Part shown: piece by piece, positions 15,573 to 27,327 of the stretch
Layout of the letters: every line of letters starts with the position of its first letter
Numbering within the stretch: position 1 is the first letter of the stretch
Assembly: GCA_903916735.1 (NCBI GenBank)
Contig: CAIWXX010000164.1
Location: forward strand, 1-64,000
Length of the DNA: 64,000 bases
Reading direction: 5' to 3'
Source: an uncultured Acidobacteriota bacterium
GTDB lineage: Bacteria; Acidobacteriota; CAIWXX01
Program-made: the position numbers and the translations under genes
The notes under the pieces: model-generated
Told to the model about the DNA's origin: nothing
Database searches by the model: none
What the model saw: only the letters and a program-made list of their open reading frames with translations

Positions 15573-16070
15573 TCAGGCCGATGGTATCCCCGTATCCCCC
15601 GGCCGGCCCTCAATGAGCTCCTTGATTCGCTCGTTGGCTTCGCGCAGCCTCTGGGCCAGGGCACGCCCGAAAAGCCAGAACCACTTCACGGCCAGCTCAT
15701 TGTCCCAGGCGATTAATCGGTCGAAGGATGCAAATTCGAATGCGAGAAGACAAGTGGCACCGTTTGCAACAGCCGTTGCGGATCGGGGAAAGCGATCTAG
15801 GAAAGACATTTCACCCAGCGTTTCTCCTTCGCCTAGATTCGCCAGAGCGCATTCTGTTTTGCGTGGAATTGACTGGGTGATTGTGACGCCTCCAGAGAGG
15901 ATCAGGTAAAACTTGTCAGGGTCTTCTCCCTGAACGAAGATGCGCTCTCCATCTGAAAAAATCTCGATGGCGGCATGTTTGAGTACCCGTTCAACTTCCC
16001 CCTGGGAAAAAATGCTGAACAGATGATTGCCGGCCAGAGCCGGAAGCAGATCCTCTTTCAGTGTCATCAT
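15573..16070 (-). CDS. Cyclic-nucleotide-binding domain protein without DNA-binding domain
   Basis: This 165-residue protein has a single CRP-like beta-roll. The phosphate-binding cassette is GEMSFLDRFPRSATAVA (about 91-107) and the preceding strands include DKFYLILSGGV. No helix-turn-helix follows; the C-terminus is a helical tail. It is therefore likely to be a stand-alone effector or protein-interaction module, not a transcription factor. Its ATG overlaps the stop of the upstream MglA-type GTPase (ATGA), so the two are translationally coupled and probably act together. The ligand could be cAMP, c-di-GMP or none. Confidence 0.83.
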   Translation of the reverse strand: MMTLKEDLLPALAGNHLFSIFSQGEVERVLKHAAIEIFSDGERIFVQGEDPDKFYLILSGGVTITQSIPRKTECALANLGEGETLGEMSFLDRFPRSATAVANGATCLLAFEFASFDRLIAWDNELAVKWFWLFGRALAQRLREANERIKELIEGRPGDTGIPSA

Positions 16071-17095
16071 TTCCTCTGGAAGAGCGATGAAATGAGCGAA
16101 CGGGTTTCTGGCTGTTGAGCCGCTGCCTTCATGGCCTGAATCTCCTCGGAGAAATTCTCAATCGTTCGGCGGAGGCCTATGATGTCCTCACGCATCCGGG
16201 CCGTTTCCTCGAAGAGTTTCCCGATGGCCATGTTGAGGTCGTTGAAAAGCCCCTGTGCCGTCTGGAAGAACGGGATATCCAGATGCTCATTGAAGACGGC
16301 CAGATTTTCTTTTATCAGTTTGTCGATGGCGGCGAGGGATTCCGATGGAAGAGAGACGACTGCCGGCTCACTGACTCGCGGATGTTCGGGGGGCGCCGAT
16401 TCCGGAGGGGCCTCCTCACTGGGTCGAATCGGTGTCGGCCTCGCCATTCGAACCGGCGCTCCAGCCTCATCCTTAAAGCGTAATTCGCCGCCCTCTTCCG
16501 GCGTTTTAAAATGCTTTTTTGTAAGATAGCTGTAGAGCAGCTTTGTCGCGACTTTGAGCGTCTGCAGGACACCCTCACCTTTGATCGCAGCCGCTTCGAC
16601 CCTGGGCCACTTGTGAGTATTATAGAGGCGGTCCATTTCATCGATCGCCATGATATCCCGGAGATCGCGTTTATTGAATTGGAGTACCATCGGGATAGAA
16701 TCGATCGAGATTCCCAGCTCCCGAAGATTCTCGAAGAGATTGTTCAAGGATTCGATATTCTTCTCGCGCATGGCCTTCTGCGAGTCGAGCACCATCACAA
16801 TGGCATCTGTGTTCTTGAGAACCAACTTCCTCGTTTCATTATAAAAAACCTGGCCCGGTACCGTGTAGACTTGCAGCCGGATCTTAATGCCTCGAATCTC
16901 ACGCAATTCCAGCGGAAGCAGATCGAAAAAGAGCGTGCGGTCCGTTTGCGTGGCGAGGGAGAGCAATCGGCCCCGGGCAGCCGGATCCGCTTTTTTGTGT
17001 ATCTGCTCTAGATTCGTTGTTTTGCCGCAGAGTCCAGGCCCATAATAGACGATCTTGGCCGTGATCTCCTTGGCCGAATAATTTACAAGTGCGAT
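16067..17095 (-). CDS. MglA-type Ras-like GTPase with coiled-coil tail; apparent ATC start
   Basis: The product is about 342 residues. Residues 1-195 form an MglA-family small GTPase: P-loop GPGLCGKT (19-26), DRTLFFDLLP switch region, TVPGQ, and the base-recognition motif FNKRDL. A Pro-rich linker follows (about 215-250), then a helical C-terminal region. MglA proteins set cell polarity and motility and are controlled by Roadblock (MglB) partners, none of which is seen here. The conserved N-terminus (ALVNYSAKEI) is present, but the codon where methionine belongs is ATC at 17095-17093. A good AGGAAG lies 8 nt before it, an in-frame TAG is seven codons upstream, and no ATG, GTG or TTG starts before the P-loop. 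Either ATC initiates, or the start has been lost by mutation or sequence error. Confidence 0.85.
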   Translation of the reverse strand: MALVNYSAKEITAKIVYYGPGLCGKTTNLEQIHKKADPAARGRLLSLATQTDRTLFFDLLPLELREIRGIKIRLQVYTVPGQVFYNETRKLVLKNTDAIVMVLDSQKAMREKNIESLNNLFENLRELGISIDSIPMVLQFNKRDLRDIMAIDEMDRLYNTHKWPRVEAAAIKGEGVLQTLKVATKLLYSYLTKKHFKTPEEGGELRFKDEAGAPVRMARPTPIRPSEEAPPESAPPEHPRVSEPAVVSLPSESLAAIDKLIKENLAVFNEHLDIPFFQTAQGLFNDLNMAIGKLFEETARMREDIIGLRRTIENFSEEIQAMKAAAQQPETRSLISSLFQRK

Positions 17096-17394
17096 GACGC
17101 TCTTCCTTTGTTGCTACACATTGTAGCAAAAGACTCAAGTCCGTGCTACCGATGCCTTGTTCCCCTGATCCACGCGTCCGCATCTCGACGAGCTCATTTT
17201 CCTATCAGGAATCCCCTGCCAGATCCGATCTGGTGAGTCTCGTGAGGACTTTCGGGAAAACGGGCCCGGGTGCGAGAACAAAAAGCAACAATGATGAAAT
17301 CCAGCACAACCCGGCCCGACTCCGCGAGTCGGTTTCACGGTTCAGAGCAGCGAAGGCGTCAACAATGATCAATGATGCAATTCTCATCCACGGA
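17096..17394. other. Intergenic region upstream of the GTPase gene
   Basis: No gene is supported here. The left part carries the palindrome and putative promoter of the GTPase gene. A short GC hairpin (CCGACT/AGTCGG) lies near 17318-17334. The UbiE-type gene ends at 17395 and reads in the same direction, so this 299-bp gap separates two minus-strand units. Confidence 0.5.
17111..17129. promoter_or_regulatory. Perfect palindrome over the GTPase promoter region
   Basis: TTGCTAC and GTAGCAA are 7-bp perfect inverted arms around a 5-bp centre. A minus-strand -10-like TACAAT (17120-17125) lies inside the palindrome, and the ribosome-binding AGGAAG of the GTPase gene begins a few bases downstream. 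It could be a repressor operator, or a hairpin at the 5' end of the mRNA. Confidence 0.5.
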
Positions 17395-21601: not shown

Positions 21602-22759
21602 CTAGAAGCGGACGGTCCCGGTAATCGCGGCGCCGATCCGATTGGATTTGGCGTCGGTGGTGCCTCCGACATCGACTGCCACATGAGTCGAATCGAAACC
21701 GATTCCTGCGGCAAATTGCCATCGTGTGCCTTCTATGTGGACATTGCGGCACATTCCTCCGCGGATTGCCAGGTGACGTCTGAAGAGGCGCCCTTCGCCT
21801 CCAAAGGCAAACTCCCTGACGGCCTCACCAAAAATACCCTCATCGTTCTTTGAGAGATCATAATCCGCCGCCACCATCAATGCCGGCAGGATAGCGTAAC
21901 TAACTCCCATCCGATACTGAGGATTCATCTTGACCTTGACGAGGCCGGCACTTTCCAGCGTGGGACCAGTCACGTCCCGAGCGACAACCCCGATCCGCAG
22001 GTTTTCAGCCACGATGCCCATGATGCCGAGGTCGAGCCCGAACTTGGAAGTGGATCTCTTATTAGGACCTTTCGCTTCGTTGACGAGATCGCGGAGCCTC
22101 AGCTTCTTGTTGTTGGGATCGACGATGAGCCGCGATGAATAATAGGTATCGGCCTGTATATATTTTGCATTCACGCCCGCCCAGAGCGTATTCTCGATGA
22201 TGCTGTGCGTGTAAGATCCGATAAACTCGCGAGCGATCACCCCTGAGAAATTGAGCTTGGGAAGATCGGTCGGCAGAGGCTGGCCGGAATAGGGATCGAA
22301 GTTGAGAATGTCCAGATTGATAATGGGAATGGCTGCGGCATTGCCCAGCGTGAGCACGGAAAATCCGAAGTCGTCATATTTAAAGATGAAATTGGCATTG
22401 GCTTCGCCGGTGACACCATTTCCCTTTTCGGCGAGGGTTTCGAGGAGGTCGATTGCTTTGCTGATGTCGCCGGGTGTGATGATCCGCCCAGAGGCCGCAA
22501 GATTCATATCGACCAGAGATTCGACGTTGTTGATTGTGTCCTTCCGGTCCGATCCGGCGGCAGAAACCGATACCATCACGCCGCGTGGCGGAGCGATCCC
22601 CAGGCCGGCCGGATTCCAGTAGACGGCGGATAGATCATCGGCCATGGCCACATAGGCTCCGCCCATTCCAAGCGCCCTGGCGCCAAAATGATCGAATGCC
22701 TGTGCGAAAAGGTCTGCCGATACAAGAAGTGATAACCAAATGAACAGTATTTTTTTCAT
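21602..22759 (-). CDS. TraF/PorV-like outer-membrane beta-barrel protein
   Basis: The product is 385 residues with a cleavable signal peptide (MKKILFIWLSLLVSADLFAQ). The mature N-terminus HFGARALGMGGAYVAMADDLSAVYWNPAGL is the hallmark of the TraF_2/FadL/PorV-type barrels found in many Gram-negative phyla. The remainder shows alternating hydrophobic strands and ends in a phenylalanine (GTVRF), as expected for BAM-assembled barrels. Functions in this group include type IX secretion shuttles and lipid transport; which applies here is unknown. A strong promoter lies immediately upstream, so it can be expressed apart from the kinase genes. Confidence 0.8.
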   Translation of the reverse strand: MKKILFIWLSLLVSADLFAQAFDHFGARALGMGGAYVAMADDLSAVYWNPAGLGIAPPRGVMVSVSAAGSDRKDTINNVESLVDMNLAASGRIITPGDISKAIDLLETLAEKGNGVTGEANANFIFKYDDFGFSVLTLGNAAAIPIINLDILNFDPYSGQPLPTDLPKLNFSGVIAREFIGSYTHSIIENTLWAGVNAKYIQADTYYSSRLIVDPNNKKLRLRDLVNEAKGPNKRSTSKFGLDLGIMGIVAENLRIGVVARDVTGPTLESAGLVKVKMNPQYRMGVSYAILPALMVAADYDLSKNDEGIFGEAVREFAFGGEGRLFRRHLAIRGGMCRNVHIEGTRWQFAAGIGFDSTHVAVDVGGTTDAKSNRIGAAITGTVRF

Positions 22760-22838: not shown

Positions 22839-24086
22839 CTACTCATTCTCGCGTGGTTGGAACGATTTGAGGTGTGATTCAAGTGGCAGCGTGATTGTGA
22901 ATTTTGTGCCGACGCCGATGGCACTGTCCACCGAAATATCTCCACCGTGCTCCTCCAGGATTCGTCGGGTGATGGGGAGGCCGAGGCCGGTGCCGGTTTC
23001 TTTGGTCGTGAAGAAGGGATCGAAAATGAGATCGATGTTTTCCGGCGGGATGCCGCCGCCGCTGTCGCCGATATCGATGACAACTTTTCCATCTCGCGTG
23101 ATGCTTTGAATCGTGAGTGCCCCGCCGCTTTCCATCGCATGGACGGCGTTGATGATCAGGTTGAGAAACACCTGCAGAATACGCTCGGGATCAATCATGA
23201 CCCGGACGTTGTTGCAGTGGCTCACCCGGTTCAGTTGGATCCCCTGATCGGTGCGCTGCTTTTCGGTGAGCGTCAGAGCGCGGTCAATCACCTCCTCGAT
23301 GCAATGTTCCTTCGGATGAAGAACGCTCTGGCGGGAAAAATGGAGAATATCCTTGATGATCGTATCAAGCCTGTCGATTTCCTCGATGATGAGCGCCGTG
23401 TATTGCTGTATCTGCTCGGGTGTCGTCTTGGGACGACCGACCAGAAATGTGAAGCCCTTGATGCTTGTGAGTGGATTCCGGACTTCGTGCGCCACGCGAG
23501 CGGCAAATTCCCCGATGGCCGCCAGTCGTTCGACATCCAGCAGTTTCTTCTCGAGCTTGTGTTTCTCGATGGCCATGGCGCCCTGAGTGGCCATGACGGT
23601 GAGCATTTTCTGGTCGCCTGATGTGAAGATCTCCTCGGGGGAATGGCGACTGATGCAGATTGCCCCAAAAATCTTTTCGCGGACAGACAGCGGCACCGCC
23701 AGAAAGGCGTGCAATTCAGAGCCGGGTTGGAAGGATGGATTTCCCATGAGGTCATTGAGGAGGAGTGGGCGGCCGCCGTCAATCACACGTTCGACGAACT
23801 GAGTGTTGACCGCCCGGGTCGACTCCGGATCAATCCCCTGAAGCGCGACCGTTGTCAGGTGCTGGCTCCGTTCGTCCTTCAATGCGATCCAGCCGCAATC
23901 GGCCTCCAGTCGCTCAACTGCCAACCGGCTCAGGTTCTCGATAACCTGCTCGGCGCCTGATGTCCCGCTGAAAGTTTCCGTGAGACTGTAAACCAGATTC
24001 AGCTCCTCAAAAGTTTCGAGCAGCTTCTCAGTGAGGCTCTGTATCTTCTCGTTTAATTTTCGTTCCTGTTCGGCACCTAAGGGCAT
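22839..24086 (-). CDS. Cytosolic GAF-domain sensor histidine kinase
   Basis: This 415-residue kinase has no membrane segment. An N-terminal coiled coil (about 5-40) leads into a GAF sensor domain (about 45-175), then HisKA with the phospho-acceptor His200 in RVAHEVRNPLTS, and a HATPase_c domain with N box INAVHAME, G1 DSGGGIP, the F box DPFFTTKETG and G2 GTGLGLPI. It should autophosphorylate in response to a small ligand or redox signal sensed by GAF. GGAGACGTGC precedes the ATG. It is the last of four co-directional signalling genes; the two receivers upstream are its likely partners. Confidence 0.93.
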   Translation of the reverse strand: MPLGAEQERKLNEKIQSLTEKLLETFEELNLVYSLTETFSGTSGAEQVIENLSRLAVERLEADCGWIALKDERSQHLTTVALQGIDPESTRAVNTQFVERVIDGGRPLLLNDLMGNPSFQPGSELHAFLAVPLSVREKIFGAICISRHSPEEIFTSGDQKMLTVMATQGAMAIEKHKLEKKLLDVERLAAIGEFAARVAHEVRNPLTSIKGFTFLVGRPKTTPEQIQQYTALIIEEIDRLDTIIKDILHFSRQSVLHPKEHCIEEVIDRALTLTEKQRTDQGIQLNRVSHCNNVRVMIDPERILQVFLNLIINAVHAMESGGALTIQSITRDGKVVIDIGDSGGGIPPENIDLIFDPFFTTKETGTGLGLPITRRILEEHGGDISVDSAIGVGTKFTITLPLESHLKSFQPRENE

Positions 24087-24220: not shown

Positions 24221-26407
24221 TCAAACGCGCTGCTCCTGAGTCTCGGTCGATTCATGTGGCGCCGTTTTTTGATAAACCGGTAGTGTGAAATAGAAGGTCG
24301 ACCCCTCATTCTGGACCGATGTCGCCCAGATGCGTCCCCCGTGATAGCAGACGATTTCAGTGCAGATGGCGAGTCCCAGCCCAATCCCACCTTTCTCGCG
24401 CGAAGAAGTGGAATCGATCTGGTGGAATTTGTCGAAGATTTGGGTGAGGTCGTTCTCTTTCATGCCGATTCCGGTATCCGCCACCGACACAGTCACTTCA
24501 GCTCCGTGAGGATCCAGCTGCAAGACAATCCGACCGCCGGGTTTGTTGAACTTGATGGCGTTTCCGATGAGATTGAAGATGACCTGGAAAATGCGATCCC
24601 AATCGGCATAGACAAGCGGTATGGGGCTGGCGGGAGCAAAAATCATCTGCAGGTTTTTTGCGTCGGCAATTGACGATGTTGCCTGGATCGCCTCATTGAT
24701 AATCTCTTCGATGCTGACCGGCTTCATCCTCCACTGCATCTTGCCGGCCTCGAGCTTCGAAAGGTCAAGAATATCATCGATCAGGCGCGTGAGGCGCTCA
24801 CTCTCCTTCTCAATGATCGTCAGAAAGCGAGAACGCAATTCCACTTCTGTTCCTGAGTCGTCCAGCAGGATCTCGGCGAAGGCGCGGATGGATGTGAGAG
24901 GCGTGCGGAGCTCGTGAGAGACCGTTGCAAGGAAGTTGCTTTTTAGCTCATCCAGCTTGCGCAGCTCGCGGTTGGCCGCTTCCAATTCCGCCGTGCGTTC
25001 GCGAACTTTCGCTTCCAATTCGGTATTGAACGACTCCAACCTTTCATAGAGTCGGGCGTTTTCAATTGCGACGGATGCCTGGCCGGCCAGGAGTTGCAAC
25101 CCCTGCATCTCGGAATCACTGAATTTCCTTTCGGCTGCCGTGCAATAGAGATTCAGCAAGCCGAGCGGCTTGCCTTTGCTACGGAGCGGCGCCGAGAGGA
25201 ACGCCTGCAACCCGGTTTCTCGCTTGGCAACATATTGAAAGACATCCTCAGCCTCGGAGTCAGTCGCCAGCAGCGGGTGTTCGCGGGTCATGAGATTATA
25301 GGAGAAAGGAGGCTCACCCGGATGTGACGGCAAGTTCAGGCTTTCACGGTCCATCCCTCGTAGCATCACTTCTCGCAGTGTCGCATCTTCTTCGGAATAA
25401 AGCGACAGAGATCCGTAGTCGGCGCCAAGCAGCTCGATCGAGAGGTTGAGTGTCAAATCGAGTACGCGGTCAAGGTTGAGTGTGGATGTGATCGCGAGGG
25501 AGAGCTGGTTGAGGATTTGGAGCTCATGGATTCGTTTCTCGAGCTGATTCTTGGTCTCACGAACTTCGCTCACGAGCTGCGCCAGCTTCATGCTGGTTTT
25601 GACAGAGCTTTCAAGCAGGTCTTTCGAATCGACAACATAACGGAAAGAAGTGTCATCAGCGGGGGGTTTGGGCGTTGGTTGACGAAGTGCGGAAAGACCG
25701 CCGGATGGCGTTCTTTCTTCGCGCATTGGCATGGCGTGGTGGCCGGAGTGCAGGACCTGTCGCAGCGCTTCCTCGACCTGATTCACAATGCCCTTTCCGA
25801 TGAACTGGTCTGATCCCATCTGGTATCGCTGGGAGACGGAAAGGATCATCAGCTTGGAAGCTTCCATGAAGGTTTCAAGCACGCCCTTGCCCTCGGTGGC
25901 GACCGAGAGGAAAACCGGGAGACCGCCGGGATTCAGCTTTTGATTGAGGATTTCATTGGGGAGCGCATCCGGCAAGTCACGCTTGTTAAACTGGACGATA
26001 ATCGGAATCGTGTTGATGTCGATTCCATTGCCTGCCAGGTTCTCATTGAAGTCTTTCAGGCTTTCGAGGTTGTCGTTCAATTTGGCGGCGCTGCTGTCAG
26101 CCACAAAGACGACGGCATCGGCGCCGGCGAGTACCACCTTGCGAGTGGCGTTGTATTGAGGCTGCCCAGGAACCGTGAACAACTGGAACCGGAGCGTGTA
26201 GCCTCGTATTTTTCCAAGAGACAAAGGAAGGAGATCGAAAAAAAGCGTACGATCGTGCATTGTATTGAGCGAATAAAGCTCGATCTTGCGATCCGGATTC
26301 GCCCGCTTGTGAATATACTGGAGGTTGGTCGTTTTCCCACCGAGAGCCGTGCCGTAATAAACGAGCTTGGCGGAGAGCTCCTTCTTCTGATGGTTAAACT
26401 GGGCCAT
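24221..26407 (-). CDS. MglA-type GTPase fused to a GAF histidine kinase
   Basis: This 728-residue protein joins a bacterial Ras-like GTPase to a sensor kinase. Residues 1-195 are an MglA-type GTPase with P-loop GTALGGKTT (19-27), DRTLFFDLLP (52-61), TVPGQ (78-82) and FNKRDL (140-145). A linker (200-265) and coiled coil lead to a GAF domain (about 305-450), a second coiled coil (about 455-490), HisKA with His498 in TVSHELRTPLTS, and HATPase_c with N616, DTGIG (644-648) and GGIGLGL (673-679). All GTPase and kinase key residues are intact, so both activities are expected. It suggests that the nucleotide state of the GTPase gates phosphorylation, or the reverse. No stop or weak linkage suggests a chimera. 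Confidence 0.93.
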   Translation of the reverse strand: MAQFNHQKKELSAKLVYYGTALGGKTTNLQYIHKRANPDRKIELYSLNTMHDRTLFFDLLPLSLGKIRGYTLRFQLFTVPGQPQYNATRKVVLAGADAVVFVADSSAAKLNDNLESLKDFNENLAGNGIDINTIPIIVQFNKRDLPDALPNEILNQKLNPGGLPVFLSVATEGKGVLETFMEASKLMILSVSQRYQMGSDQFIGKGIVNQVEEALRQVLHSGHHAMPMREERTPSGGLSALRQPTPKPPADDTSFRYVVDSKDLLESSVKTSMKLAQLVSEVRETKNQLEKRIHELQILNQLSLAITSTLNLDRVLDLTLNLSIELLGADYGSLSLYSEEDATLREVMLRGMDRESLNLPSHPGEPPFSYNLMTREHPLLATDSEAEDVFQYVAKRETGLQAFLSAPLRSKGKPLGLLNLYCTAAERKFSDSEMQGLQLLAGQASVAIENARLYERLESFNTELEAKVRERTAELEAANRELRKLDELKSNFLATVSHELRTPLTSIRAFAEILLDDSGTEVELRSRFLTIIEKESERLTRLIDDILDLSKLEAGKMQWRMKPVSIEEIINEAIQATSSIADAKNLQMIFAPASPIPLVYADWDRIFQVIFNLIGNAIKFNKPGGRIVLQLDPHGAEVTVSVADTGIGMKENDLTQIFDKFHQIDSTSSREKGGIGLGLAICTEIVCYHGGRIWATSVQNEGSTFYFTLPVYQKTAPHESTETQEQRV

Positions 26408-26477: not shown

Positions 26478-26858
26478 TCATGATCGTCGGGCAAAAACCT
26501 CGTGGATCTTCTGCTGGAGGGCACGAGGGGAAAAGGGTTTTGTGAGGTATTCATTGGCGCCGGCACTCCGAGCTTCCTGCAGATCGGCTTCCTGACCGCG
26601 AGCGGTCAGGATGATGATATAGGTGTCTTTGAAGGTTGGATCGGCGCGCAGTTCCTGGCAGACCTGGAAGCCGGTCTTTTTGGGCATCATGAGATCAAGA
26701 AGGATCAGATCCGGAAGCTGTGTGTGTGCGGCCGCGATGGCTTCTTCTCCATCCTCGGCTGTGGCAATCTCGCAGCCTTCCTTGCGAGCCACATAGCTGA
26801 CGGATTCAATAATGTAGGGCTCGTCGTCGCAAATTAGAACTTTCTTCGAGACGGCCAT
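26478..26858 (-). CDS. Stand-alone response-regulator receiver
   Basis: This 126-residue CheY-like protein has the acidic pair DDE (11-13), the phospho-acceptor Asp55 in LILLDLMMPK, Thr84 in ILTARG and Lys106 in LTKPF. There is no output domain, so it works by protein contact or in a phosphorelay. It lies 70 bp upstream of the GTPase-kinase gene on the same strand and is the likely receiver of one of the two adjacent kinases. Confidence 0.93.
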   Translation of the reverse strand: MAVSKKVLICDDEPYIIESVSYVARKEGCEIATAEDGEEAIAAAHTQLPDLILLDLMMPKKTGFQVCQELRADPTFKDTYIIILTARGQEADLQEARSAGANEYLTKPFSPRALQQKIHEVFARRS

Positions 26859-26913: not shown

Positions 26914-27327
26914 TTATGATTGCTGCGAGACAGATGCTCCGGCCTCCGCCGCTTCGAGCAACTTCTTCACCTTGCTCAGCAACTCCTCAGGATTAAAAGG
27001 CTTGATAATGTAGTCATCCGCCCCGTGCCCCTTGCCTTCAATCTTGTACTTCGTCTGCGTGTACACGGCCGTCATGAGAATCACCGGCGTTGTTCCCTTT
27101 TCTTTGATCCTGTGGCAAATCTCAAATCCGTGGACTTTTGGGAGAAGCAGATCGGTGATGACAATGTCGGGCTTTTCGTCCTCGTATTTCTGCAAGGCCA
27201 TTTGTCCATCACCCGCAGTGACGACATCATACCCTTCAGACTCAAGAAAGGTCTTGAGCATCTTGCAAATCTTGACTTCATCGTCCACGACTAAGATCTT
27301 CTTTTTTACGGTATCCTGATTCTCCAC
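26914..27327 (-). CDS. Stand-alone response-regulator receiver, first gene of cluster
   Basis: This 137-residue receiver has the acidic pair in VVDDE (15-17), phospho-acceptor Asp59 in IVITDLLLPK, Thr86 in LMTAVY and Lys109 in IIKPF. The tail after residue 125 is short and Ala/Ser-rich, with no DNA-binding domain. The start is a GTG at 27327 preceded by GGAGGA. It heads the four-gene signalling cluster, whose members are separated by 55-134 bp. Confidence 0.92.
   Translation of the reverse strand: MENQDTVKKKILVVDDEVKICKMLKTFLESEGYDVVTAGDGQMALQKYEDEKPDIVITDLLLPKVHGFEICHRIKEKGTTPVILMTAVYTQTKYKIEGKGHGADDYIIKPFNPEELLSKVKKLLEAAEAGASVSQQS

Follow-up and report, generated by a model that had tools for sequence, protein, structure and literature searches.

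MglA GTPases and Histidine Kinases in Described Systems

Where the small GTPase MglA and a histidine kinase are known to work together in bacteria, separate proteins connect them. Proteins of the MglA family (Ras superfamily, Group 1), those of M. xanthus and T. thermophilus among them, are recognized as single domains of 150–240 aa that bind GTP and hydrolyse it under stimulation by the Roadblock protein MglB, to whose gene theirs is coupled; nothing longer than 240 aa was included in the 2014 survey of prokaryotic Ras-like GTPases (PMC4316618). Actinobacterial conservons (CvnA-D) bring a histidine kinase and an MglA-family GTPase into one signalling unit, together with a Roadblock protein (CvnB) and CvnC; all four are encoded by separate genes, and no receiver is present (PMC4316618, PMC13343842). 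The path of signalling between the conservon GTPase and kinase is poorly understood and unsettled (PMC13343842). In Group 1 Rup GTPase neighbourhoods, the order of separate genes links a small GTPase with a histidine kinase or a c-di-GMP enzyme, and the GTPase belongs to a different family (PMC4316618). The signalling helix found in many soluble sensor kinases was described in a 2006 survey as incompatible with most eukaryote-type systems, among which GTPases were named (PMC1592074).

The window, the whole stretch of 64,000 nucleotides analysed here, encodes an MglA-type G domain and a histidine kinase in one chain, and no prior description of such a fusion class was found in the open-access papers searched. 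The fusion resembles MglA Group 1 in its strong full-domain match and in having the P-loop GxxxxGK[TS], TVPGQ, R53, T54, Q82 and [NT]KxD at equal positions. It differs in being a multidomain protein of 728 aa, in the Ala at the Ras Gly12 position, in His33 for Tyr, in its separate branch, and in the lack of an adjoining Roadblock gene. With the conservons it shares the combination of kinase and MglA-family GTPase, but one chain and adjacent receivers take the place of the four separate genes, and no Roadblock protein is encoded nearby. The coupling of small GTPase to kinase likewise recalls the Rup neighbourhoods, though there it is a matter of gene order alone. The C-terminal two thirds of the protein are those of an ordinary soluble GAF-S-helix-HisKA-HATPase sensor kinase; the N-terminal Ras-like G domain is what sets it apart. 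Within Acidobacteriota, this join turns out to be an old and widely kept design.

Domain Organization of the Fusion Protein

The fusion gene lies on the minus strand, as do all its parts given below, and forms one open frame of 728 codons from an ATG at 26407 to a stop at 24221 (24221–26407), as established from the frame, domain search and phmmer. These are exactly the coordinates of the single ORF described in the earlier note, which did not state the strand. The MglA-type G domain (aa 1–196; 25820–26407) was identified with phmmer against solved MglA structures, since aa 2–191 match M. xanthus and T. thermophilus MglA at E-values of 1e-55 to 1e-58; in Pfam it gives a weak match, as Arf. Its P-loop, GTALGGKT (aa 19–26; 26330–26353), has Ala as residue 21, the Ras Gly12 position. 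A stretch of variable length and sequence in the alignment (aa 220–255) precedes a conserved helical linker motif (aa 258–302, VVDSKDLLESSVKTSMKLAQL...; 25502–25636) that is common to the whole sensor-fused MglA branch.

Pfam places a GAF domain at aa 310–449 (25061–25480), a HisKA domain at aa 489–555 (24743–24943), and a HATPase_c domain at aa 602–712 (24272–24604; N616, DTGIG). The helix that joins GAF to HisKA (aa 452–488; 24944–25054) carries an ERT motif resembling the signature of the signalling helix (PMC1592074). His498 lies in VSHELRTP (codon 24914–24916) and is the H-box His, in agreement with its earlier designation as the phosphorylated residue; with the N and G boxes of the HATPase also present, the protein is by its motifs a HisKA histidine kinase. 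The earlier note had described an intact GTPase joined to an intact GAF-HisKA-HATPase kinase, and all motifs are there, including the P-loop, TVPGQ and NKRD, with Ala at residue 21 as the departure from an intact GTPase. The earlier note is supported on this point: the join of MglA-type GTPase and kinase is genuine and conserved, and the kinase has its complete set of motifs. An AlphaFold2 model of the fusion, made with one homologue, reached a mean pLDDT of 36 and was discarded.

Distribution and Origin of the Fusion

A search profile made from nine fusions and run against 396 Acidobacteriota genomes found a G domain leading into a kinase at 44 places, in 43 genomes from 13 families, one of these fusions (G073) being without most of its HATPase. 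The domain order that the earlier note had proposed to look for elsewhere is thus present in many genomes. One further hit, a 449-aa kinase without a G domain (G054), is cut by a contig end and is uninformative. In one further family, f22, a related form of about 800 aa, MglA-PAS-HATPase-receiver with a degenerate H-box, is common. Starting from the single sequence, a protein search of contigs reached no further than the sister genus, its other matches being unrelated kinases; a plasmid search returned one distant MglA match, in Deinococcus. Outside the phylum, the search covered 247 genomes around a Pseudodesulfovibrio and 194 around a Tychonema, and no fusion was found there at an E-value of 1e-100.

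The sister genus encodes the same protein (L029 = G001:C40, contig JACPPM010000104.1) with 75% identity throughout, the linker helix included, and some fusion-bearing genomes are one-contig assemblies (G055, G112). Third-position GC is even along the gene, at 0.68 in the G domain, 0.63 in the linker, 0.65 in GAF and 0.66 in the kinase (range 0.625–0.684), and the window contains no N letters. The earlier note would have given up the fusion had it been unique to this sequence or had the linker contained a join; what was found is a widespread fusion, even GC, and the same protein in the sister genus.

A tree built from 106 MglA domains places all kinase fusions within one group of 48 (support 94/99), apart from the stand-alone MglA proteins. 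The Acidobacteriota stand-alone proteins cluster with M. xanthus and T. thermophilus MglA (100/100). The group of 48 also takes in eight members with GAF, PAS or long extensions and no recognized intact kinase, as well as L087, a long-branch row whose placement is unsure. A linker-helix profile built from the kinase fusions matches all eight of these non-kinase members; above 8 bits it matches none of 49 other extended and none of 8 stand-alone MglA proteins. Because tree and linker agree, a single origin of the sensor fusion is indicated.

Features of the G Domain

The catalytic residues of the G domain are well preserved. D52, R53, T54 and Q82 align with M. xanthus MglA without a gap, and an intrinsic arginine finger (R53) is present beside the switch 1 Thr, D52, R53 and T54 being kept in the kinase fusions. 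More broadly, conservation among 39 kinase fusions is at least 97% at each of G19, G24, K25, T26, D52, R53, T54, T78, P80, G81, Q82, N141, K142 and D144. Two substitutions mark the fusions. His33 replaces Tyr in all 39, and position 21 is Ala in 31 of the 39, the window protein included, vs. Gly in 10 of 10 stand-alone proteins, M. xanthus and T. thermophilus MglA among them. In a larger set of 50 loci, the exceptions to Ala are family f22, one f13 genus and one f74 protein. Arf-family GTPases also have no Gly at the Ras Gly12 position. In T. thermophilus MglA, the change G21V lowers kcat seven-fold (PMC3000849). Because of the Ala at the Ras Gly12 position, slow GTP hydrolysis is predicted for the G domain of the fusion, with the reservations that Ala is a milder change than Val and that the Arf GTPases mentioned above do without Gly there.

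The Receivers and the Four-Gene Cluster

The fusion lies in a cluster of four minus-strand genes. Two stand-alone receivers come first, one of 137 aa with a GTG start (26914–27327), which is kept in the sister genus, and one of 126 aa immediately upstream of the fusion (26478–26858), identified by domain search and of a type usually conserved beside such fusions; the fusion and a GAF-HisKA-HATPase kinase of 415 aa (22839–24086; domain search) follow, with gaps of 55, 70 and 134 bases. The cluster of two output-less receivers and a second GAF kinase described in the earlier note is therefore present by domain search. The four genes, whose staying together it proposed to check, do so only within the family, where the two genera have them in identical order; elsewhere, usually one receiver stays. 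Receivers adjoining fusions elsewhere score higher against 26478–26858 than against 26914–27327 in nearly all of the cases listed, which makes 26478–26858 the likelier partner. No Roadblock gene adjoins the fusion, and the Roadblock matches of the same genome sit elsewhere.

The N-terminal 175 aa of the second kinase resemble, at 24% identity, a GAF-SpoIIE phosphatase found beside fusions in other families. Given this likeness, the companion kinase may be a case in which the sensor was kept and the effector changed. Similar clusters recur around the fusion in families f25, f54, f62 and f83. At L143:2524-8122, the order is GAF-SpoIIE phosphatase, receiver, fusion, PAS-HisKA protein (305 aa, no HATPase) and STAS protein, which resembles partner-switching systems. 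Clusters of this type also occur at L146, L163 and L180, and a frame resembling an ECF sigma factor lies near these clusters. Neighbouring genes at a few loci are composition-based gene calls, and all-against-all clustering was dropped because of antisense frames in GC-rich genomes. Directly downstream of the GAF kinase, the window encodes a PorV/TraF_2-like outer membrane protein (21602–22759, minus strand), which is not beside the cluster in the sister genus.

The phospho-acceptor His itself varies among the fusions. The window protein and most families have it; in f16, f34 and f66, in parts of f43 and f22, and in one f29 protein, T, S, E, Q, N, D, A or G stands in its place. On the tree it has been lost about four to five times. 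The His-less fusions (L051, L061, L104, L106 and L111 among them) amount to naturally occurring pseudokinases, with HATPase motifs retained and the G domain intact. If any same-strand frame that encodes a receiver and lies within about 1.2 kb is counted as adjacent, 24 of 34 His-keeping loci have such a receiver and none of the 16 His-less loci does (Fisher p 1e-6, with no correction for kinship). In pairs matched on the tree across the four to five His changes, the receiver agrees in one to three and disagrees in none, too few for significance. The link between His and receiver is therefore suggestive only, because the counts are of species and the independent events number just four to five; on the same ground, a reading of the Fisher value as highly significant was dropped.

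Proposed Mechanism and Alternatives

The fusion is best explained as a soluble sensor kinase from an old MglA branch, in which a G domain was joined once to a GAF/PAS module through the conserved helical linker. The reading preferred here, which has perhaps an even chance of being correct, is that it works as a G-protein-fused two-component kinase with the receiver at 26478–26858 as its partner, the nucleotide state changing the linker and hence autophosphorylation. The protein would dimerize through HisKA, and the nucleotide state of the slow G domain, together with the GAF ligand, would act on the helical linker and in this way change how His498 is autophosphorylated. Phosphate would then pass to the adjacent receiver and perhaps to the second one as well, where a further input could come from the GAF kinase next door. 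Lacking an output domain, the receivers must act by protein contact. Control of a phosphorelay by GTP hydrolysis, the wiring raised in the earlier note, is a plausible reading where the His is live, although the slow hydrolysis predicted from the Ala at the Gly12 position complicates it.

The opposite direction of control is nearly as open, because the G domain is kept where the kinase died, and since His-less and kinase-less lineages keep the G-domain motifs, the GTPase is not merely a kinase input throughout the clade. In this alternative, which is serious though somewhat unlikely, the GTPase is the output: GAF, kinase and receiver would set the nucleotide state or the location of the G domain, and the G domain would in turn act on an MglA effector, for example a protein of the pilus or of cell polarity. 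G motifs are kept in nearly all fusions across the four to five losses of His, and some branch members (L045, L073) lack a kinase altogether, carrying just GAF or PAS. Precedents also exist, as MglA of M. xanthus acts downstream of the receiver protein RomR, and the conservon GTPase has been proposed to be an output (PMC4316618). The window member, however, has all its kinase motifs intact and receivers adjacent, its G domain occupies the N-terminal place that input domains take in soluble kinases, and Ala at the Gly12 position gives no hint of a switch that cycles rapidly.

A second alternative, co-localization only, is improbable. Here the G domain would recruit the kinase to a cell site such as the pole or the pilus base without regulating it, which fits the role of MglA as a polarity protein in M. 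xanthus and the variable stretch before the linker helix. The linker motif, however, is conserved throughout the branch and missing from the MglA proteins outside it, so that passage of a signal fits better than a passive tether. That assembly or annotation joined two genes, a reading to which the draft state of both genomes of the window's family might lend itself, is already refuted by the same protein on a separate MAG contig, by its occurrence in 43 genomes of 13 families, and by its even codon composition.

The G-protein-fused two-component kinase could, more tentatively, be extended to the whole phylum. There may be a one-polypeptide class, for which the case is suggestive and still short of even, in which a slow G domain of the Gly12-to-Ala type gates a kinase that signals to an adjacent receiver, and in several lineages a decayed kinase would regulate the GTPase, with the direction of signalling reversed. 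The fusion occurs in dozens of naturally varying forms, some with a live kinase and some with a dead one, which makes the coupling of GTP switch and phosphorelay directly testable.

Other Extended MglA Proteins

The window encodes a second MglA fusion (16070–17113, minus strand) with a C-terminal extension of about 150 aa without a Pfam match, and the sister genus has a counterpart (L083). Extended MglA proteins form a little-described set, and the few that were scanned have no known domain in the extension. Acidobacteriota genomes often encode several such proteins, with C-terminal extensions of 90–450 aa (loci L034–L091). The classic arrangement is also found in the genome of the window, where a Roadblock (MglB-like) gene directly precedes a 201-aa stand-alone MglA (G000:C90:29998-31047).
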